Positions 1 to 59,543 of a stretch of DNA of 64,000 nt are shown here, piece by piece (the stretch's first letter is position 1; every line of letters starts with the position of its first letter). Position numbers and translations under genes: made by a program. Origin of the DNA: a virus; IMG/VR virus record IMGVR_UViG_3300042295_000443, positions 1 through 64,000 of that record; one strand, 5' to 3'. The notes beneath the pieces were generated by a model. It saw only the letters and a list, made by a program, of their open reading frames with translations, did no database searches and was not told where the DNA came from.

Positions 1-3000
1 TTTGATCATTTGCATTATACCATTTACTACTATTAGGATCATAAAATATTCTTTTTTCTGGAGCAGATTCATCTTTTACATTACTTAAAGATTGAGGACG
101 ACTAAAATATTCTTGATCCTGAGCCCAAAAATTAAATAAATCTTCTGTCATAGGTAATGAATCTTTATAAGTTTTATTACCTATGTCAGGTTGATACATC
201 ATTTCTTTAGTATCTCTATTATAAATAATTTTACCTTTATAAGGTTCTTCAAATGGATACAAGCCCTTGTTTAAAGATTCATCCCAATTATAACCAATCT
301 CTCTAGAATTACCATATTTTTCATCATCTCTAAAAGGGAGCCAAGGTATATAATTATTTAAATCTTCTAATGTAACAGGAGTAGCTTTTGGATATTTATC
401 ATAAACATCAAAGTTTCCAGTAGTAAGTTCAGGTTCACATCTTTTAGTTATTATATTCCAATAAAAATCTTCAGGACAAGGTTCTCCTCCTTCTGCAAAC
501 TTACTTTTATATCCTTTTTGCCAAGAATTTACTAATCCTGATTTAATAGATTTTCCTACTCCAGGAGATCCTAGCATTTCAAATCCAGAAAATCCTAGAT
601 CAAGTCCTGTATCTAAATTAGGATTTGCTATAAACTTAGATAAATTTTCTGGTGCCGTGTATGCACCTTCTAAACCAAAACCAAGATTTACTAAATTAGC
701 AGGAGTTAATGTACCAGCTGTAGCTGAAGTTATTGTCTTACCTAAAGGAATAGCTGTATTATATGCTTGTTTAGTAGCTTGTACTACTGGTGAAGTACCA
801 ACTTTACTTGCTAAAGTTTGGACACCTTTAATTAATCCTGAAGGACCAATACCTGTAGGCATTAAATAAGAATTAAGACCAGAAGATGATCCCTCAAGAA
901 GTTTATCTCTTTCTTCAAATTTTGGATTATCATTCCACATTTTACTAAGAAAATTAGAATTATCATATTCTTTTTGTCTTTTAGTTTTATCTGCTTTAAT
1001 TTCTTTTCTTTGTGTATCTGTTAAATATTTACCATCAAGACCTAATGTTTTAGGATTATACTTTGCATTTTTATTAAGTTCAGCTGATCTTGCTTCTACA
1101 TTTTTACTTAAAGGTACATATTTACCATTATACTCAACAAGCCAAGTACCATCATTTTTTTTAATATATTTTTTATCACCATAGGAATAATAAGAACTTC
1201 CACCTTCTTGAAGTTTATGTAGTCCTCCTTTTTGTGCATGTACTAATCCTTTACCACCACACTTATGACATGTGGTCATATCATTACCACCATCTGCAGC
1301 ATCCCATTCCCAACCACATTTTTTACAGGTTACTTTCTTAGTAAGTAAGGCACCACCTTTTTTCTTTTTATTTAATTTATATTGCATCAAATTCATAATT
1401 TGATTTTGGTAATTTTTTAAATTTTCATAATCATCATATTCTTGACTATATGCTTCTTGAGCTTTTTTATCAGCTACAGAAGAGTTTCCTTTAAAAACAA
1501 GTTGTCTACCTTCTCTTTTAGCATTTTCTATTTCTCCAGGAATATAGTTTCCTTCCTCATCTTCATAGCCTTCCATGTAGTTTTTTATATCTTCTACTTT
1601 TTTGCTAGCTTTTTTATAAAAACCTCCTGTATTTGGTTGACGTTTATTAAGTCCTGATTTTGTAGTATACCTATTATATTTATCATATCCAATCCTATTT
1701 TCAGGATAACTAGGAGAATATTCAGGAGCTAGAAGTTGTTCTGATTGCCCTATTATATCACCAGTATTTGTATCAATAAGATCAGGAACCTTGACTGGCA
1801 TAGGAATAAATTCTTCTTCTTTTATTGGCTCTTCATAAACATTATGTATTACTGGTTTTTTAAATATAGGAAAAGCATACCCATCATCATTTCTTTCTAA
1901 ACCAACTGGTTTTATTTTTAAATTAGATTTTGGACCTTTATATTTATAACTTATAGTAGTACCTGGTTCAGAATTATCTGTATGCCATTTTTTTTCTTGT
2001 CTATCTCTTTCTTTAAAATAGGCATCCCGTGCTTTATCTTGTGCTGTTGGACTTAAGCCAGGAGTAACAATTCTGGACTGAAATGCATTTACTTTATTAA
2101 AATCACTTTTAGCATTATTATAAAAATTTGAACTATCTGACTCAGCTGCAAATGCTTTATCATATATATCTTTATCAGTATGATATACTATTCTTGTATT
2201 TTTAGGAATTTTTACACACTTAGTTCCATTCCAGTATTCTCCACTTTCACATTTATTAAATTTTTCACCACCTTTTTGCTTTTCATTTAAAAAACCTGGA
2301 GATACATCTTTATAATTCTCTGCAAAATAATTAGCATCTTCATCAGAATCAAATCTTATGGCTTCATTAGATTCTGGACCATAGTCTCCAAGTTGTAATA
2401 CACCATTCTCATCTTGTATTTGTGGTACAGCATAGTTATCCATGCTTGCCATATAATGTGTACCAGTATCACCATTATCAAATTGATAAGGAGTATCTGG
2501 AAGGTTGATCATTCTTTTAGCAGCAGGATTACCAAACTCATTAGCATAAGCTAATCTGGCTTTCATCATTCCATTCATTGCATCAGTATCATCACCATCT
2601 TGATATTCATTATCATCTACAGTGTATCCTTCTGCTCTATAAGCTTCTATCTCTTCAGGAGTTAATTCAGCTTCTTCATATGTTCCACCTTCTGCATAAT
2701 ATTTAGCATGTGGATCAAATACTTTATTTTTTCTAGACTTAGGTTTTTTAAATAAATTATTTTCTGTATATAATCTATTGGTTGCATCTAAACTTCTAGA
2801 AAACTTTTTAGATTTTTCTGGTTTATCTTTAGGAAGAGATACTATGCCACCTTTCTTTTTTTCAAAGTCTTCAGGTTGTTCTAACTCAGGTTGTAATCTA
2901 TAGTTAGTAGTAATTTCTTCTCCCGGTTTTAAATCTCTTGATGCAAATATATATCTTTTATTATTTATTTTTTTACTAAAAGCTGTTGGATTTTCTTCAT

Positions 3001-3148
3001 TATGATTATGGTTATGACCAATTTCTGAATAAGGCTGATCATCAACATGTGCTAATCCAATTACCTCACCTTTTTTAAAAGGCGCTTTAGTAAATAAACC
3101 TTTACCAGCTCCTTTTATGTCAGATTGTTTTGTTATGTACTTCTTCAT
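1..3148 (-). CDS. Large virion-associated protein with N-terminal SET domain (C-terminus off the left edge)
   Basis: An open frame of 1049 codons runs from ATG at 3148 to the window edge, so the C-terminus is missing. Residues 1-90 look like a SET-domain lysine methyltransferase: IKGAGKGLF at 11-19 is the SAM-binding GxG strand, GHNHNHNEENP at 44-54 matches the position of the NHxxxPN motif, and RDLKPGEEITTNY at 71-83 is the terminal motif with its tyrosine. Further in are a four-cysteine zinc ribbon (CKKCGW...CHKCGG), two C-x5-8-YWN-type cysteine patches and repeated QKGG/QEGG/AEGG motifs shared with other late proteins. Its start overlaps the muzzle stop (TAATG), so it is co-translated with neck genes. 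I infer a virion or ejected cargo protein; the methyltransferase activity is a prediction. Confidence 0.75.
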   Translation of the reverse strand, partial: MKKYITKQSDIKGAGKGLFTKAPFKKGEVIGLAHVDDQPYSEIGHNHNHNEENPTAFSKKINNKRYIFASRDLKPGEEITTNYRLQPELEQPEDFEKKKGGIVSLPKDKPEKSKKFSRSLDATNRLYTENNLFKKPKSRKNKVFDPHAKYYAEGGTYEEAELTPEEIEAYRAEGYTVDDNEYQDGDDTDAMNGMMKARLAYANEFGNPAAKRMINLPDTPYQFDNGDTGTHYMASMDNYAVPQIQDENGVLQLGDYGPESNEAIRFDSDEDANYFAENYKDVSPGFLNEKQKGGEKFNKCESGEYWNGTKCVKIPKNTRIVYHTDKDIYDKAFAAESDSSNFYNNAKSDFNKVNAFQSRIVTPGLSPTAQDKARDAYFKERDRQEKKWHTDNSEPGTTISYKYKGPKSNLKIKPVGLERNDDGYAFPIFKKPVIHNVYEEPIKEEEFIPMPVKVPDLIDTNTGDIIGQSEQLLAPEYSPSYPENRIGYDKYNRYTTKSGLNKRQPNTGGFYKKASKKVEDIKNYMEGYEDEEGNYIPGEIENAKREGRQLVFKGNSSVADKKAQEAYSQEYDDYENLKNYQNQIMNLMQYKLNKKKKGGALLTKKVTCKKCGWEWDAADGGNDMTTCHKCGGKGLVHAQKGGLHKLQEGGSSYYSYGDKKYIKKNDGTWLVEYNGKYVPLSKNVEARSAELNKNAKYNPKTLGLDGKYLTDTQRKEIKADKTKRQKEYDNSNFLSKMWNDNPKFEERDKLLEGSSSGLNSYLMPTGIGPSGLIKGVQTLASKVGTSPVVQATKQAYNTAIPLGKTITSATAGTLTPANLVNLGFGLEGAYTAPENLSKFIANPNLDTGLDLGFSGFEMLGSPGVGKSIKSGLVNSWQKGYKSKFAEGGEPCPEDFYWNIITKRCEPELTTGNFDVYDKYPKATPVTLEDLNNYIPWLPFRDDEKYGNSREIGYNWDESLNKGLYPFEEPYKGKIIYNRDTKEMMYQPDIGNKTYKDSLPMTEDLFNFWAQDQEYFSRPQSLSNVKDESAPEKRIFYDPNSSKWYNANDQ

Positions 3149-6100
3149 TATCTTTGAGATGTTTGATTCTTACTATTAACAATTTTTACTACCATATTTA
3201 TATCTCCAGAAATATCTTTTTTAAGATTTAAGAAATTTAAATAATGTCTAAACTTTTTTCTTTGTGTCTGTGATTTATTATAATCAAGATTAAGTGGATT
3301 TAAAATTTTAGTATAGCCATTAGATGAAGTTTCCCATATGTTTTGAGAATCATAGTTTCCATTTAATATAGTTGAACCAGGAATAACTGGACCTGTTGGA
3401 GGATAATCTGATCCTATTGGAAACTCTCCTCTATCTTTAGTAATGTCCCAGAACTGATTAAACCTGTATTTATTTTCTTCTTTAGAGAATAATATGTCAA
3501 AAGAATTCTGATTAGCATTTAATTTAGGATAGTCTAAACTTAAAGTAACATTATTTTTTGGAAATAAATTAAGATTTAAATATCCAGATGCTTGTTCTGA
3601 ATTAAATATAATAGCATTATCAAAATTAAAATCTAAAACATGATGTTGATCTACACAATTAATTTTAGATATTCTATAACACTCTAATATATATTCAATA
3701 CTTTTTATTGTAGTAACTGTTTGTCCAGTTATTATTGGGAACTCTATTTCAAATGGGTAGTTTTGATCATAAAAATTACAAAAACTATTACATGTATCAT
3801 TATGTTTCCATATTGCATTATTTTTAGTTGTTATAAATTTTCCTTTATTTGGAATAATTAAATCTGGATGCCAGTCATGAAAAGAAATCCAGAAATCATT
3901 TTTAGGGTCAAAACTTATTGTCCATGATGCATCTTCAAATAATAAAGAATTTCCTAATAAATATGTACCAGGTAAAATAGCTCCAGGAGAACCATTAGGT
4001 TGTGTTGGATTTTGTATTTGAAAATAGTCACCAGTACCTTTTCTATTTAAAGGTACATATATAACACTCTGTCCTCCAGGTACTTTCCATTTATCTAATA
4101 ATTTATAATCTTTTTTAGAAAAGAATATAATTGAGTTTTCATTATCATATAATGTTTGACATCCAATACCTGCTACAGGATTATCTAAATAAGGATATGT
4201 AGGAAAATCTATTGTAAGGTTATATGGTAAAAATAAATTAAACCACCACTTTAAACCAGATTGAGAAATTTCTTTTAATCCTCCAGAATAAGAAAATATT
4301 TTTCCTTGATTTTGTGAAATATAAAATAAACCACCAGGTGTAGACAATACAGATAATCTATTTTGAGATGATCCATATTCATATGGTACATCTGCATTAG
4401 TTACTGATTGTCCTGGTTGAGAAAATAAACCACCATCTCCAATAGTAATTTTTGTAGCAAGATCTGTTTGAAGAACATCTACACCTTGATACATTAATGG
4501 ACTTGCATTTTTAAATGTAATAAACAAACCACTTTTATTAATAGACTTTACTCCACTAATTTGTGATTTAAATTCATTATAATTATTAGGTAAGTACACA
4601 AACCAAGAATCTTTAAAAGATTCATTTTGTTGAGGTAATGAATAATATAATCTATCTGGATAATATGTATAACATAATTGTGCAACAAAAGGATCATAGT
4701 TTCTGCTTTGTAAATTACCTGCAGAAAAATATTGACTAAAAGCTTTTGATATACTTAATGAATAATCATATCTATAATCATTACCTCTTGCAATTATTTG
4801 AGGATCCATATTAAACATTGCATTTAAGTCAGTATAAGAATATGGATCATAAAACTTTTCTGCTTCTGTTATTCCTGCTATTCTAAAATCTACAAGAACA
4901 TCTGACTCTACAAAGAAATCTCTTACAGAAGATACTGCAAGATAAAAGAATGATTCTTTAACTCTGAATACTCCTGGATATCCTAATGCTGATAAACTAT
5001 CATCAGCATACTGATATCTTTTATTATCTAAATTATAAAAATCTGTAGGAACATTTCCTGTGCCTGGAGTAAAAGTACTAAAGTTTGGAGCAAAATCAGT
5101 TGAGTCATATGCTTTTGAATTTACCCAAAATCTTGGCTCAGGAACCATCTGATGTAAAAGATAATTATATTCAAATCCATCTGGTTGACCAAATAGCCAA
5201 TCATAGAAAAAGAACATAGAATTTTTTTCTGTATATCTATTTACAAAAGTATCACCACCAAAAAAAGTTGGTGTGAATTGAATAAGATTTACAAAATATT
5301 GTACACCAGGATCTGTAGCACAATTATAAGGACCTACAGGAGCTACAGTATAATTTGATAATTTTTGTTCACAAGGAGTTATAGCAATTTGTTTTATAGA
5401 TTGTAATTGACCATATTGATTTCTTAATCTAATTTTTAAAGCAGCATAGTAACTTGCAATTGATAAGCCAAAAGGAACACTAGGATTATCAAAATTAGGA
5501 GAACCAACTGTTGACCAATTCCATCCATTATTGACAGCTTGATTATTTTCAAAATATCCTAATGTAACTAATGACTGATCAACATATTGACCAGCAGCAT
5601 TTGTTATATAAGCAGGACCAATATTAATTCCATTAGGAAAAAGAGGATTAACATAATCTCCTGTTTTAGTTCTTACAACAACTGTATCAGATCTTTTAAG
5701 ATTATTTATACTATAGGCTGTAGACTGTGTTGTAGGAAAACCTAATGGATCTGGAATAATTGCATTATATTGTTGAACTTCTTGAATATTATCTCTAATA
5801 TAAAAACTATCTTCTATCTTATATCTTTGTACAGAACCAAATACATTTGGTTTTATCATATCATCATAGAAACCATGACCAATTTGTTGTAATGCATATT
5901 GATCATATCTTATAGAAGCATATAGAACTCTTAAAGCAAGATCAAAACCTTCTGAAAAATAATATAAAAATTTTGAAATACCACCTAATATATCAAATGC
6001 TGTTCCTATAGATCCTGGAATATAATCATTCCAAGTAAGTTCTTTATCTAATGTAGGTGATGTATAAGTTCCTATATTTGCTGATGCATTATTAAATGTT

Positions 6101-8682
6101 TGTAATGATGTAGTTAAAAGATCTGTTCCTAAAAAAGCATCTGATAAAGCTCCTCCTAAATTAAAATAACTATTATAAGCTGCATTATATGCAGATTTAA
6201 TTCCTACTACTGGCAAATTAAATGCAGTTGAACTACTACTATTAGTGGGTAGTCCACCAGTACTCTGACCAGCAGCAGGTGTCCAACCCCAAGCAACACC
6301 TGATTGATTAGTAAAGGAACCTCCTGGTTGATTGTATACTCTTTTTCCAATTAAACTTATTATAGCTTCTCCAATACCAACTAATACTGATATTAATACA
6401 GCTGCATTAGAAAGTAATTTAAATTTAGGATGAAGAGCTGGTTCAATAAATTGTTGTGAAGAAACTCCTTGTAAATAACCATATAACTTTATTTCTGTCA
6501 TTGACAAAAATGGAGATGTAAACATTGTATCAGGAGAATGAAATGTTATCATATCTGTTGGTACATTCTGAGGAATTACAACAGTATAATCATCAGGTTT
6601 TTTAGGTATTCTAATGTATGGATCATTAAACTGATAGTTATTATCTAATGTATTAAGATTATTCATTGGAGATTGAATACAGTTAAAGGGATAGTTAGGA
6701 TATAATCCTATTCTGCCTCTAGCTACTGTTCCTTTAATTTTATAAGTTCTAAGATTATTAACCATTCCTTTGGCAATAATACTTTTATTTCCTTCCCTTG
6801 ATCCTCTTAAAATTTCAAATCCAACTATACCAGGTATATCTATACCATCATTATCTTTTGGAAGAATAATATTTTCAAATCTAACTCCTAACAATCTAAT
6901 CTTTAATCCTGTATTTGCATTTGAAACTGGATTAAAATGTACAGTGTCAATGTTTAAATAATTATCAGGAAATTTATGATGTCTAATTGGGAGTCCACAT
7001 AAATCATAAATATTAGATATTTGTGGTAAAGGACCTGTCCAACAATGAGCACTTGCATTCCAAATTTCTGGTTGGTTATCTGGATACTTTTCTGATGATT
7101 CCCAGTACCCCATATTTCCTGAAGCAATTATAACTCCTCCATCATCTGTAGTTGTTGGTATAAGTGCTGGTACTGGATAAGCATTAGCAGTATTATACAT
7201 TTCAAAAAACTGATCTGTAACATCTAAAGTGTTTAAATCATGAATAGTAGGAGTATTTGTTCTTTCAGGAACTATAGTATTGTTATAAAGATAGCTTCCT
7301 GAAGGTCTTCCCGGAATATGATATGAAGCAGATTTGTCTCCTGTATCATATACCCATCTTATAAAAAAACAATATACTTCATCTCTTAAATAACTTCCTT
7401 TATTTCCACCTTTAACATAATAGTCAGATGGATATTCTGTTGATACCCACTTAGTTCCAATTTGATTTGCCAAAGGTTGATAATTAAAATCAAACTTAGA
7501 TGTAGGACCTACCCTTAGTAAATAATTATTTACTTCAGTAATTTGATCAGACTTTTCAAAGATAGGAGTTTGCAATGGTAATAATCTAGTTGGTACTGTT
7601 ATAAGAGTATCAGGTATTTGATCTAACTCAACTACATTTGTATTTGTAGAGTATAAACCTATTTCTTTTGCAACAGTTCCCTGGTTAACATTTTGTACTA
7701 CTACTAATACAAATTCAGAAAAATTTGCTGAGTCAGCTGAAATATTAATTTGTAAAGATCCTTGTAAATCATTTGGATGCCATATTGGTTGTGTATTACT
7801 AGGAGAGAAATAATCTGTTACTCTTTGTCCTTTAATTGTATAAGCTATTAATGCAAAGTATGTTCCATTTCTTAATGTTCCTCCGGATGCTCCTAAATTA
7901 ACACTAACACAAGGTGTTTCCATTAATCTTGCTAATCTACTTTTAGGACAATCTAATGAATTTATATCAGTACATGTAATACAGGCATTTAAAGTTGGAC
8001 AGTTAGGTGGCCATACTCCAGGAGATGTTTGTACACATCCTGCATTATCATCACATATTTGTTCCCATTGTACTCCAGGCCAAAGTATTTGATTAGTACC
8101 ATCTGTATAATAATTAACAGTTGCTGGATTTGCAAGGGGAGTTCCTAACCAACTAAAAGTTGTAGGATTTGGCCAAGTTTGTGGATCTCCTACATTAAGA
8201 AATCTATCAGGATTTAAACCATCAGCCCAGTATATTTGATATGAGCAATCTTCTTTTTCTCTTGATGATCCAGAAATTAAAAATCTTTTATCAAAACCTA
8301 AACAAGCATCTTGAACAATAGGTCTATATCTACAGATGTCTTCTTCTAATAAACCTATCTCAGACATAACAGGAACTCCTAATGAATTATGTCCAGCAGT
8401 AAATATTATCCAATTGCTTGAAAATAAATGTATTACTCCTATAATATATTTATTTTGAGCTCCATTAAGTCCTGCATTAGGCATTGTTAAACCAGCAGTA
8501 GCACATAAATAATTTGAACTTTCATTTGATAATGTTCCTAACTGACCTTCTTCATTATTATTTACAGCATTGCGGGCATGTGTCCACATTCCTTCTCCAA
8601 CAAAAGATGCATCACTATCTTTATTAAGTCCTTTATTAAAACTTCTTGAAACATTTTCAGTTGTACTCTGTATTTTTGCCAT
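3148..8682 (-). CDS. crAss-type muzzle / P22 gp10-like tail stabilisation protein
   Basis: At 1844 residues this is the largest complete gene here. The N-terminus carries the family signature of an N-terminal FNKGLNKDSD strand followed by GMWTHARNAV and NNEEGQLGTLSNE, typical of the crAss muzzle family, whose structural relatives are the P22 gp10 and T7 gp12 nozzle proteins. The rest is beta-rich with many Asn, Tyr and Pro and no signal peptide, as expected for a beta-propeller nozzle at the tail tip. It lies directly downstream of two neck-ring candidates and upstream of the SET-domain protein. It should form the distal end of the short tail. The family call is firm; structural details come from known relatives. 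Confidence 0.85.
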   Translation of the reverse strand: MAKIQSTTENVSRSFNKGLNKDSDASFVGEGMWTHARNAVNNNEEGQLGTLSNESSNYLCATAGLTMPNAGLNGAQNKYIIGVIHLFSSNWIIFTAGHNSLGVPVMSEIGLLEEDICRYRPIVQDACLGFDKRFLISGSSREKEDCSYQIYWADGLNPDRFLNVGDPQTWPNPTTFSWLGTPLANPATVNYYTDGTNQILWPGVQWEQICDDNAGCVQTSPGVWPPNCPTLNACITCTDINSLDCPKSRLARLMETPCVSVNLGASGGTLRNGTYFALIAYTIKGQRVTDYFSPSNTQPIWHPNDLQGSLQINISADSANFSEFVLVVVQNVNQGTVAKEIGLYSTNTNVVELDQIPDTLITVPTRLLPLQTPIFEKSDQITEVNNYLLRVGPTSKFDFNYQPLANQIGTKWVSTEYPSDYYVKGGNKGSYLRDEVYCFFIRWVYDTGDKSASYHIPGRPSGSYLYNNTIVPERTNTPTIHDLNTLDVTDQFFEMYNTANAYPVPALIPTTTDDGGVIIASGNMGYWESSEKYPDNQPEIWNASAHCWTGPLPQISNIYDLCGLPIRHHKFPDNYLNIDTVHFNPVSNANTGLKIRLLGVRFENIILPKDNDGIDIPGIVGFEILRGSREGNKSIIAKGMVNNLRTYKIKGTVARGRIGLYPNYPFNCIQSPMNNLNTLDNNYQFNDPYIRIPKKPDDYTVVIPQNVPTDMITFHSPDTMFTSPFLSMTEIKLYGYLQGVSSQQFIEPALHPKFKLLSNAAVLISVLVGIGEAIISLIGKRVYNQPGGSFTNQSGVAWGWTPAAGQSTGGLPTNSSSSTAFNLPVVGIKSAYNAAYNSYFNLGGALSDAFLGTDLLTTSLQTFNNASANIGTYTSPTLDKELTWNDYIPGSIGTAFDILGGISKFLYYFSEGFDLALRVLYASIRYDQYALQQIGHGFYDDMIKPNVFGSVQRYKIEDSFYIRDNIQEVQQYNAIIPDPLGFPTTQSTAYSINNLKRSDTVVVRTKTGDYVNPLFPNGINIGPAYITNAAGQYVDQSLVTLGYFENNQAVNNGWNWSTVGSPNFDNPSVPFGLSIASYYAALKIRLRNQYGQLQSIKQIAITPCEQKLSNYTVAPVGPYNCATDPGVQYFVNLIQFTPTFFGGDTFVNRYTEKNSMFFFYDWLFGQPDGFEYNYLLHQMVPEPRFWVNSKAYDSTDFAPNFSTFTPGTGNVPTDFYNLDNKRYQYADDSLSALGYPGVFRVKESFFYLAVSSVRDFFVESDVLVDFRIAGITEAEKFYDPYSYTDLNAMFNMDPQIIARGNDYRYDYSLSISKAFSQYFSAGNLQSRNYDPFVAQLCYTYYPDRLYYSLPQQNESFKDSWFVYLPNNYNEFKSQISGVKSINKSGLFITFKNASPLMYQGVDVLQTDLATKITIGDGGLFSQPGQSVTNADVPYEYGSSQNRLSVLSTPGGLFYISQNQGKIFSYSGGLKEISQSGLKWWFNLFLPYNLTIDFPTYPYLDNPVAGIGCQTLYDNENSIIFFSKKDYKLLDKWKVPGGQSVIYVPLNRKGTGDYFQIQNPTQPNGSPGAILPGTYLLGNSLLFEDASWTISFDPKNDFWISFHDWHPDLIIPNKGKFITTKNNAIWKHNDTCNSFCNFYDQNYPFEIEFPIITGQTVTTIKSIEYILECYRISKINCVDQHHVLDFNFDNAIIFNSEQASGYLNLNLFPKNNVTLSLDYPKLNANQNSFDILFSKEENKYRFNQFWDITKDRGEFPIGSDYPPTGPVIPGSTILNGNYDSQNIWETSSNGYTKILNPLNLDYNKSQTQRKKFRHYLNFLNLKKDISGDINMVVKIVNSKNQTSQR

Positions 8683-8684
8683 AA

Positions 8685-9701
8685 CTATACTAATCTATTT
8701 CTGCCAATAGGACCATAACTACTAAACATATCATAATACCTACCATACATTGCTCTTCTATTTGCTGCCCATACATTTTGTAATTCTCTAAAGTTTGGAG
8801 TATTAACTACATTAAGTGCAGCATTTCTTGCTACTCTTAATTGTGATTGTATATATTGCATTTTTTGTGCAACATCTTCTCCATTCATATATAAATTTTC
8901 AAGAATTCTAGCTTTAAATGCATATTCATAATATTCATTTATAAGATCATGATCTGGAACTAATAAATTTCCATTGTCATCTTCCATTGCTCCTTGATAA
9001 TTTAAATAAACTTTTGCTGTATCTAATGTAGTAAATAAAAAACCTCCTTTAATCCATCCTTCATTTGCTGAATTAACATATAAGTTAGGACAGTCACATT
9101 CTATTTCTTGACTTGCTCTCATTCTTAAAGGAACAACAGAATTATATGTTCTAGTTTGTCCACCTGTTACAACTTGTATAAGTTCATATTTGTCTCCCTT
9201 ACAGTTCATAAAAACTCTTGGAGGTATACAAGTATCACCATAAGGGTTTAAAGGATCATAAGCTACTGGAATTGGATCTACTATAGGAAAATTAAGATCA
9301 CAGCCTGCAGTATGATTACAAGGATTAGAATTACATGTTCTACAGTTAACTGTAATTGGAGAACATACATCTACTGTAGAGGGAACTTCTACATAAGGAA
9401 CTTCTTGAATATTTGTTCCTCCCATATCATATCCTGTATTTACAGTATAAGAACCACAAAGCATTGCATAGTTAAATACATAAAAGTCATCTGGTAATTT
9501 TACCTTACCATGACATACTTCTAATATAACTTCTTTAGTTTGATTAATTCTTAAACCAAGATCATAATTTAACTTCTTAGCTAATTTAATTAATTGCTGA
9601 GGCTCTATCATATTTTCAAGAGCAAAAGTGTTAAAATCTACAGATACATCTTCTAAGAGTTGATTAAAAGATCTATACCTAAGTGTGTAGTTAAAATCCA
9701 T
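8685..9701 (-). CDS. crAss-like neck/tail ring structural protein
   Basis: This 338-residue protein starts MDFNYTLRYRSFNQLLEDV and has a VKLPDDFYVFNYAM segment seen in crAss-like structural proteins encoded next to the muzzle gene. A cysteine-rich stretch lies around residues 110-140. It begins within one base of the upstream gene's stop (start ATG at 9701) and ends two bases before the muzzle start. This tight cluster of 193-, 220-, 338- and 1844-residue proteins matches the ring and muzzle block of crAss virions. The precise ring number cannot be assigned from sequence alone. Confidence 0.6.
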   Translation of the reverse strand: MDFNYTLRYRSFNQLLEDVSVDFNTFALENMIEPQQLIKLAKKLNYDLGLRINQTKEVILEVCHGKVKLPDDFYVFNYAMLCGSYTVNTGYDMGGTNIQEVPYVEVPSTVDVCSPITVNCRTCNSNPCNHTAGCDLNFPIVDPIPVAYDPLNPYGDTCIPPRVFMNCKGDKYELIQVVTGGQTRTYNSVVPLRMRASQEIECDCPNLYVNSANEGWIKGGFLFTTLDTAKVYLNYQGAMEDDNGNLLVPDHDLINEYYEYAFKARILENLYMNGEDVAQKMQYIQSQLRVARNAALNVVNTPNFRELQNVWAANRRAMYGRYYDMFSSYGPIGRNRLV

Positions 9702-10363
9702 TATCTTAGAGTATTTTGACTATCATCTGGACCATCACCTGGAACAGATAAAGACATAGTTAATTCTTTAATTACAAATTGTTCTGCTTCTGAAAATAAA
9801 TAATCAGGTAAAGCAAATTGTTGATCTTGTTTTATACCACATTCTTCAGTAGTACATGTATCTAATTTTCCTTCAAAAATGGCTTCTACTCTTACGGCAT
9901 CCCAATCTATATTAGGAGCAAAAAGATAACCATCTAAATACCAAAAATAAAAGCTTCTATTATATTTCCAAGTTGTAGTCTTAGTCATAGATACCCAAGT
10001 ACCTGGGTCTGTTCTATACATTTCTATAGTACCATCTATAGAAGATACTGTACGGAAGATAGGACCAAATACTCCATCTAGAATAGTAGGAAGTTTTTCT
10101 TTTGACCTTTTAAAATAACATCCTGAAAAAACACCAATACATCCTGCATCTACTTTATCTACATCTATCATTTCAATATAAGGTAATACAGAAAAGATAG
10201 AACTTATCTTCATTAACTTAAATTGATTATCTTCTCTTTTAATTAATGCTTGTGCATATTTTAATAAAGAGTAATAAATAGTTCTATCAGTTAAAAATGG
10301 ATCTTCTTTAACTGCTTTTAATGTATTTCTTACTCTTGAAATTGCTTCTCCAATTGTTGTCAT
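9701..10363 (-). CDS. crAss-like neck ring / head-tail connector protein
   Basis: This 220-residue protein has the pattern of a conserved crAss-like structural family: an N-terminal helical part (ISRVRNTLKAVKEDPFLTDR, then LLKYAQALIKRED) followed by a beta-rich part with SVLPYIEMIDVDKV. The N-terminus resembles adaptor proteins that stack under a portal. It overlaps its upstream neighbour by four bases (ATGA type), so the two are translationally coupled. I infer that it forms one of the neck rings between portal and muzzle. Confidence 0.6.
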   Translation of the reverse strand: MTTIGEAISRVRNTLKAVKEDPFLTDRTIYYSLLKYAQALIKREDNQFKLMKISSIFSVLPYIEMIDVDKVDAGCIGVFSGCYFKRSKEKLPTILDGVFGPIFRTVSSIDGTIEMYRTDPGTWVSMTKTTTWKYNRSFYFWYLDGYLFAPNIDWDAVRVEAIFEGKLDTCTTEECGIKQDQQFALPDYLFSEAEQFVIKELTMSLSVPGDGPDDSQNTLR

Positions 10364-58241: not shown

Positions 58242-58497
58242 CAGATAAGATTTTAGCTTTTTCTGCTAAAATAGTAAACATAATCATTGATGCAGCTGAT
58301 TTCCAGCATTCATCAATAGCTGTAGATAATATATCATATGGAACAGATGTGGTTAATACCTCACCTGTTCTCATATGAATTTTAGATCCTGCATCAGGAT
58401 TCATTCTATTTATAAATGATGTTCTAGTAATGTGAGTAACATTAAGTTGCTCATAATATGAACCATCTTTATCTTTAAATTCTACTGGTAGAAACAT
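58192..58497 (-). CDS. Hypothetical protein on the minus island
   Basis: 101 residues: MFLPVEFKDKDGSYYEQLNV, MRTGEVLTTSVPYDILSTAI. Beta N-terminus and helical C-terminus with an acidic tail. The start overlaps the phosphoesterase stop by one base, and the end overlaps a plus-strand gene. Likely co-transcribed with the phosphoesterase. Confidence 0.65.
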   Translation of the reverse strand: MFLPVEFKDKDGSYYEQLNVTHITRTSFINRMNPDAGSKIHMRTGEVLTTSVPYDILSTAIDECWKSAASMIMFTILAEKAKILSVKDFDPEDLEPSASTE

Positions 58498-59543
58498 TAT
58501 AGTATGGTATTACCTTCTATTTTGTAATTATGTACTGAAACTTTATCTTTAATTCTTTTCATTATAGCAAATCCATGGTTCCATTCATTGATTTCCATGT
58601 ATTCAGGAGCAAGGTCACACATACATCCTAAACTATATGCTTTGATTGTAGTTGGTTCACCTACTCCATAAACTCTCTGTGAGCTTTCACTAGACTTATG
58701 GAAGTGATTTACTATAGAATTGGACTTAAGTCTCATTAGAAGTGTTCTAGCAGGTACTACACCACCAGCACCAGGTATTTTATCTCCGTGCTCTATAGTG
58801 TAGTCACCAAATACTACTTTACTTCTAAAAGGAATGAACTCTATTTTGTATGCAGCTACTTGAAGAATAACATCTAGTCTGAACTCATCCATGTCTAATA
58901 GCTCTGATGCCTTAATTCTAAGGTATCTTTCAAATCTATTCTCATGGTTTCCTGTAATGTAATAGATGGGAATATCAGGGAACCTATCTCTAATGTAAGC
59001 CAGGAATTCTTTTCCTGCCTCTATCTCATCTTTAAAATGTATTACTCTTGGATCTTTCTCATGGAATGATAGCTGATAGAAGTCTAATAAGTCTCCATTA
59101 ATAAATATAGAGTCTACATTTTCTTCTTCAAACTTAGTAAACATAGTTTCTAAGGCTGTATTATCATGAAATGGTATATGGACATCTCCAAACACACCTA
59201 ATCTCATACATCCTGAAGGAAAAGTAAACTGATTACGTGTTTTTGTATGTGATTCTGGTAAAGTAAGCGTAACATGCATAACTTTGGTTTTTAGTTCTTT
59301 TATGAATTTATTATTTACACCAATCTTTAATTTGTCTCTTAATTTTTTACCTAATTGTCCTCTGTAATATCTTACTCTAGAATATGCCCCATCATAAGAA
59401 TCAAAGAATGCAGTATTTTCTGCATAAATCTTTCTAGCTAAGGTTTTAGATGGAGCATTTGGGAACTTTTCTAAGTACTCAAACACAATTTCTGTGTTCT
59501 TTTTGGGAATACTTCTTTTATTTATGGCTTTTGTCATATACAT
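58497..59543 (-). CDS. Metallophosphoesterase with N-terminal helical domain
   Basis: 348 residues. FGDVH at 118-122, INGDLLD at 148-154 and TGNHENR at 197-203 are the calcineurin-type metal motifs; an EHGDK motif near 260 gives a later ligand. The N-terminal ~100 residues are basic and helical. Such enzymes can be nucleases, cyclic-nucleotide phosphodiesterases or phosphatases; which one is open. It is a minus-strand insertion in the plus arm with a late-type promoter-like site upstream. Confidence 0.8.
   Translation of the reverse strand: MYMTKAINKRSIPKKNTEIVFEYLEKFPNAPSKTLARKIYAENTAFFDSYDGAYSRVRYYRGQLGKKLRDKLKIGVNNKFIKELKTKVMHVTLTLPESHTKTRNQFTFPSGCMRLGVFGDVHIPFHDNTALETMFTKFEEENVDSIFINGDLLDFYQLSFHEKDPRVIHFKDEIEAGKEFLAYIRDRFPDIPIYYITGNHENRFERYLRIKASELLDMDEFRLDVILQVAAYKIEFIPFRSKVVFGDYTIEHGDKIPGAGGVVPARTLLMRLKSNSIVNHFHKSSESSQRVYGVGEPTTIKAYSLGCMCDLAPEYMEINEWNHGFAIMKRIKDKVSVHNYKIEGNTIL

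Follow-up and report, generated by a model that had tools for sequence, protein, structure and literature searches.

The window analysed here covers positions 1-64,000 of a virus record of 89,161 bp. At its very beginning, on the minus strand, an open reading frame running from 3148 to 2 encodes at least 1049 residues of a mosaic protein, called below the SET-xGG protein, and stays free of stop codons up to the contig edge, which cuts its 3' end. An end repeat was looked for in the 89,161 bp record and none was found, and the opposite record end opens within a different giant minus-strand gene; the C-terminus of the SET-xGG protein is therefore missing. Completing the gene across the contig ends was considered and rejected, since the record lacks such a repeat and the frame, once wrapped, reaches a stop after 2 residues. 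The gene that faces it across the contig gap (record G000, 82390-89160; L030:6390-13160, minus strand, outside the window) encodes 2256+ residues, including an AlkB-type 2OG-Fe(II) oxygenase (PF13532, E 7.7e-12) and a DUF7831 domain. Its product may be another cargo protein of the polyvalent type, one whose oxygenase domain resembles oxidative demethylases.

The record belongs to the Crassvirales, with muzzle, ring, portal, capsid and terminase genes recognised through Pfam, PHROG and BLASTP. Upstream of the SET-xGG gene lie, all on the minus strand where located, the crassvirus muzzle (tail-tip) protein gene (3148-8682; PF25731, E 7e-26; phrog_37948; BLASTP E 1e-33 to phi17:2 gp43), tail ring protein 1 (8685-9701; PF24228) and tail ring protein 2 (9701-10363; PF25702), together with the capsid, portal and terminase genes. 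The sequence-only reading of this DNA had assigned the gene to the late arm, and this position is right, as the gene follows the muzzle and ring genes within the structural block. Scanning the window for tRNAs and Rfam families gave no match. A calcineurin-like phosphoesterase gene (58497-59543, minus strand) is observed inside the plus-strand replication arm.

The first module of the protein (residues 1-84; 2897-3148, minus strand), called here the mini-SET, was proposed in the sequence-only reading to be a SET domain, a kind of lysine-methylating domain familiar above all in animals and plants. The motifs on which this proposal was based are in place: G15-K-G17 (within GAGKG), N48-H49 followed by P54, and EEITTNY (E77-Y83), the latter including E78, T80 and Y83. 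The Pfam model PF00856 scores 23.4 bits over residues 43-83, above its gathering cut-off of 22.4 (E 8e-5), and its matches to relatives are far stronger (1.4e-10 in L008; 4.7e-11 in L144, over the entire model; down to 3.5e-11). When a profile of the 57-sequence family is compared with PDB sequences, the top match is PBCV-1 vSET (1n3j, E 2.2e-8), followed by MLL1, KMT5A and EZH2, and hhalign pairs the SET region with vSET at 97.6% probability. A predicted fold unlike SET had been named beforehand as the outcome that would speak against the proposal, and it did not occur: the AlphaFold (AF2) model of residues 1-97 (pLDDT 93.3, pTM 0.83) is SET-like, with vSET as its best PDB match (TM 0.71). 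Each of the 50 PDB fold matches listed is a SET/PR-domain protein or a complex that includes one (prob 1.00), and the best viral fold match is A0A218ML49 (TM 0.81, 37% identity). The match of the model to SET structures suggests a C-terminal pseudoknot. The above-threshold Pfam match, the family profile leading to vSET and the predicted fold all agree, and together they lead to rejecting a chance motif match. Residues 1-84 are thus almost certainly a SET domain homologue and, with fewer than 100 residues, the mini-SET is among the smallest versions of the domain known.

All 57 aligned relatives share G17, N48, H49, E78, T80 and Y83, and 50 of them keep G15. dN/dS in the SET region ranges from 0.08 to 0.22, indicating that it is under purifying selection, and NH..Y is also kept in cyanophage and pelagiphage copies at about 30-38% identity. 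The mini-SET has 22 residues from KGE to NH where vSET has 43; with about 21 residues fewer in this stretch, it lacks the SET-I region. SET-I is usually a variable segment that normally helps to bind the substrate; as it is usually variable, its absence weakens the claim of activity more than that of homology. Directly after the SET domain, in place of the post-SET segment, stands the tail LQPELEQPEDF (residues 85-95; 2864-2896, minus strand). R84, Q86, L89, Q91 and P92 are invariant in the 57 relatives, and the tail motif RxQP[ED]LEQP is nearly invariant within the mini-SET group but missing from the copies of cyanophages and of the pelagiphage that were compared. This tail may take the place of the post-SET lid. 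The mini-SET is fairly likely to be catalytically active.

Further modules are found downstream of the SET domain in the same polypeptide. The linker module KFSRSLxATNRLxTENxLFxKPKSRKxKVFDPxAKYY.GG (2684-2806, minus strand) is common to SET-bearing relatives. It is followed by a module called HYMASM (residues 189-286; 2291-2584, minus strand), with a mean column identity of 81% in 22 proteins, no Pfam match, a model pLDDT of 76 and no PDB fold match below E 0.4. The fusion of SET with a zinc-ribbon and xGG protein, put forward in the sequence-only reading, is supported. The zinc-ribbon-like segment is found as CxxC..CxxC at residues 606-635 (1244-1333, minus strand) and is conserved in L003. 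An xGG signal is present, though a modest one: GG occurs 10 times versus 6.5 in shuffles, and [KQEDRN]GG 8 times versus 2.9, with 18 of 2000 shuffles as high. Only the SET domain and the zinc ribbon are recognisable in the truncated copy of the window. Lysine accounts for about 11% of the residues of the protein.

The start codon of the SET-xGG gene overlaps the muzzle stop codon by one base (TAATG). Among the SET loci that carry a muzzle, nearly all show this arrangement, the SET frame opening with the final base of the muzzle stop. This recurrence of the junction in many independent contigs leads to rejecting an assembly chimera. To describe the region behind the muzzle, the 80 best matches to the muzzle group of the window were sampled, which is no census; 51 distinct loci among them extend far enough downstream. 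SET is present in 19 of these loci, 17 of them with the one-base junction, and absent in 32. At locus L026, a stand-alone SET of 109 residues is encoded between ring 1 and the muzzle. We propose that the post-muzzle SET gene is translated in step with the muzzle.

When SET is absent, the post-muzzle gene usually begins with a DPxGQW..ITMxGVxYPV module. Among 42 complete post-muzzle proteins, Pfam recognises SET in 20, phage lysozyme in 7 and SLT in 3, while amidase, LysM and ART-PolyVal are found once each; DUF6782 (metallopeptidase) is seen in L034 only, as a weak match below cut-off, and a defence-library scan of the same 42 proteins gives one marginal match. In several cases these domains are joined to SET in the same polypeptide: SLT (L002), amidase (L003), lysozyme (L012), LysM and SLT (L007), or the ADP-ribosyltransferase ART-PolyVal (L031, E 6.6e-13). 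In L010 and L023, the muzzles are 99.8% and the SET regions 98% identical, but the modules differ after residue 158; as L023 ends at a contig edge, this single pair is to be read with caution. The post-muzzle gene is a fast-changing mosaic, of which SET is one optional module. L006 and L023 are the two ends of one 118 kb contig, each with a different version of the SET gene, which suggests either a strain mixture with fast module replacement or an assembly artefact.

IMG/VR scans revealed 27, then at least 97 related loci, and a crassvirus muzzle is found on 27 of 33 records tested. More distant SET domains, either stand-alone or fused, are encoded by the cyanophages P-SSM7 and P-RSM6, the pelagiphage Kolga and the podoviruses P26218 and MW202744; in the last two, SET shares its polypeptide with a short-tail-fibre-like domain, and a gene for head closure or for an internal virion protein lies close by. 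Fusions of SET with DHH or nucleotidyltransferase domains exist in other phage records without a muzzle match. UniProt already uses the label 'SET domain containing protein' in Caudovirales, and the open-licence papers searched contain a single passing mention of a phage SET domain, in ORF62 of phage Ps15 (PMC9025141). The idea that SET domains are rarely reported in phages is thus contradicted by the IMG/VR loci, the copies in cultured phages and the named UniProt entries. The suggested link to intracellular bacteria does not apply to the mini-SET subfamily either: one scan of GTDB genomes, which reaches fairly close relatives only, found no bacterial member, and a bacterial origin was set aside on the same scan. 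Two loci (L042:8396-10639 and L072:2772-4814) combine a DHH-phosphoesterase-like N-terminus, a mini-SET and a module called GYRTYSPF, which also occurs in crassvirus post-muzzle proteins; this sharing suggests module exchange between unrelated phages.

Virion proteomics of a relative bears on the location of the protein. In the Cellulophaga phage phi4:1, MS/MS data underlie the structural annotation of the muzzle gp42 and of gp41, gp40 and gp39, and phi17:2 gp43, which matches the muzzle of the window (E 1e-33), is annotated by similarity to phi4:1 gp42. The N-terminal module of phi4:1 gp40 is common to the SET-bearing relatives L004 and L092. The sequence of gp40 led to rejecting it as a SET protein, as only this neighbouring module is shared, and the SET-xGG protein of the window has no direct match to it (E 0.54). 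In crAss001, the first gene after the muzzle encodes the cargo protein C1 (gp45), which is located in tail and capsid and is thought to leave first (PMC10172136); homology to gp45 was searched for and not detected (BLASTP E 7.8). PBCV-1 packages vSET in its virion (PMC7019647). From the synteny with virion proteins and from these relatives, the SET-xGG protein is probably carried in the virion.

The gene product could thus be a modular, virion-carried crassvirus protein of the polyvalent type, whose first module would be a miniaturised SET protein-lysine methyltransferase. It might be packaged near the tail, as C1 is in crAss001, and leave the virion early. In the host cell, the SET module would use host SAM and methylate lysines of a host protein, for instance a nucleoid, transcription or defence protein, while in relatives the hydrolase modules could open the wall and the ADP-ribosyltransferase modules could modify other targets. 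The suggestion of the sequence-only reading, that the protein comes in together with the DNA or else acts on proteins of the virion, fits this context, as the coupling to the muzzle, the cargo-like position and the hydrolase and ADP-ribosyltransferase partners agree with it. The partner domains favour an action in the target cell. Points against this explanation are the lack of SET-I, normally substrate-binding, the absence of SET from phi4:1 gp40, and the lack of a direct sequence match of the window protein to gp40 or to crAss001 gp45. Taken as a whole, an ejected mosaic protein whose SET domain methylates lysines of host proteins is the explanation that we favour, with a probability not far short of even; that SET has a host protein as its target after ejection is, all steps taken together, somewhat less likely than not. 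A more detailed version, in which a working methyltransferase is present in the virion, is ejected N-terminus first and methylates a protein of the bacterium as infection begins, some relatives adding effectors such as an ADP-ribosyltransferase, is possible rather than probable.

The same enzyme could alternatively act during virion maturation: in the producing cell, SET would methylate lysines of phage tail or cargo proteins (the muzzle, the rings or its own lysine-rich linkers), and so tune assembly or ejection. Two gene layouts link SET to the muzzle: it comes behind the muzzle in most loci and stands alone between ring 1 and muzzle in L026. SET lies near virion genes, with its tail-fibre-like partner, in both podoviruses, and lysine makes up about 11% of the window protein. 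The muzzle does not need SET, however, as 32 of the 51 muzzle loci of the same group lack it, the ADP-ribosyltransferase and wall-hydrolase partners point to the target cell, and a position in the structural block is equally expected for packaged effectors. We consider maturation somewhat unlikely. A late action on a host protein while still in the producing cell, the membership of the structural block being incidental, would agree with the stand-alone SET genes of P-SSM7 and Kolga, which are not beside annotated tail genes, and with the DHH and nucleotidyltransferase fusions of muzzle-less records. As the place beside the muzzle is nearly constant in crassviruses, it is very improbable.

Finally, SET could have no catalytic role, a tail or cargo protein using its beta-clip fold for binding or for structure. 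The shortened KGE-NH segment, the coming and going of modules in post-muzzle proteins, and the highly conserved tail, which could be an interaction motif, are all in line with this possibility. A pure scaffold would nevertheless not need the SAM-contacting NH and the catalytic tyrosine, which never vary among the 57 relatives and are retained even in the distant cyanophage and pelagiphage copies. Such a non-catalytic module is unlikely.

If the favoured explanation, host-directed methylation by an ejected protein, is true, phages would join an algal virus in delivering lysine methylation with the virion, and the injected crassvirus effectors would gain a new activity. The variable slot behind the muzzle is a place to mine such effectors, and a SET fold of less than 100 residues is of interest for enzymology. 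In the open-licence papers searched, no account was found of SET modules located behind the muzzle of crassviruses; this setting appears to be undescribed, although phage SET domains and a virion-packaged SET are already known.

Among known systems, PBCV-1 vSET (A612L) is the closest solved relative by profile and the best PDB fold match, and is similar in its one-domain size. It is virion-packaged (PMC7019647), as the crassvirus protein probably is too. vSET is a separate algal-virus protein of 119 residues, the chlorovirus H3K27 methyltransferase acting on histone H3, while the mini-SET is a module of a phage protein of 900-1700 residues, is shorter before NH and carries a tail motif not found in the aligned vSET sequence. 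A0A218ML49, from an uncultured virus (971 residues), resembles the window protein as a large SET-containing fusion, compared here as a database entry.

The likeness to polyvalent proteins (Iyer et al., 2017; PMC5512222) lies in large mosaics that combine enzyme modules of unrelated kinds and are encoded among the structural genes of phages. Several unrelated catalytic domains per chain are seen in relatives (SET with ART, or with SLT, amidase or lysozyme), and the ART domain joined to SET in L031 is named after the class. The main text of the polyvalent survey (131 domains; PMC5512222) names neither the SET domain nor lysine methylation. As for the zincin-like metallopeptidase hub of polyvalent proteins, the SET family shows only the sub-cut-off DUF6782 match of L034; this hub domain is common, but not universal, in the class. 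phi4:1 gp40 (PHROG 36695) is similarly an MS/MS-annotated virion protein of the post-muzzle block, and its ITMxxVxxPVM..GG module is common to L004 and L092; it differs by having no SET domain, and the window protein is without the shared module. Finally, crAss001 C1 (gp45) is, like the SET-xGG protein, encoded by the first gene after the muzzle, and is a cargo that is likely ejected (PMC10172136), but the two have no detectable sequence similarity, and in crAss001 there is no overlap between the gp45 gene and the stop codon of the muzzle.
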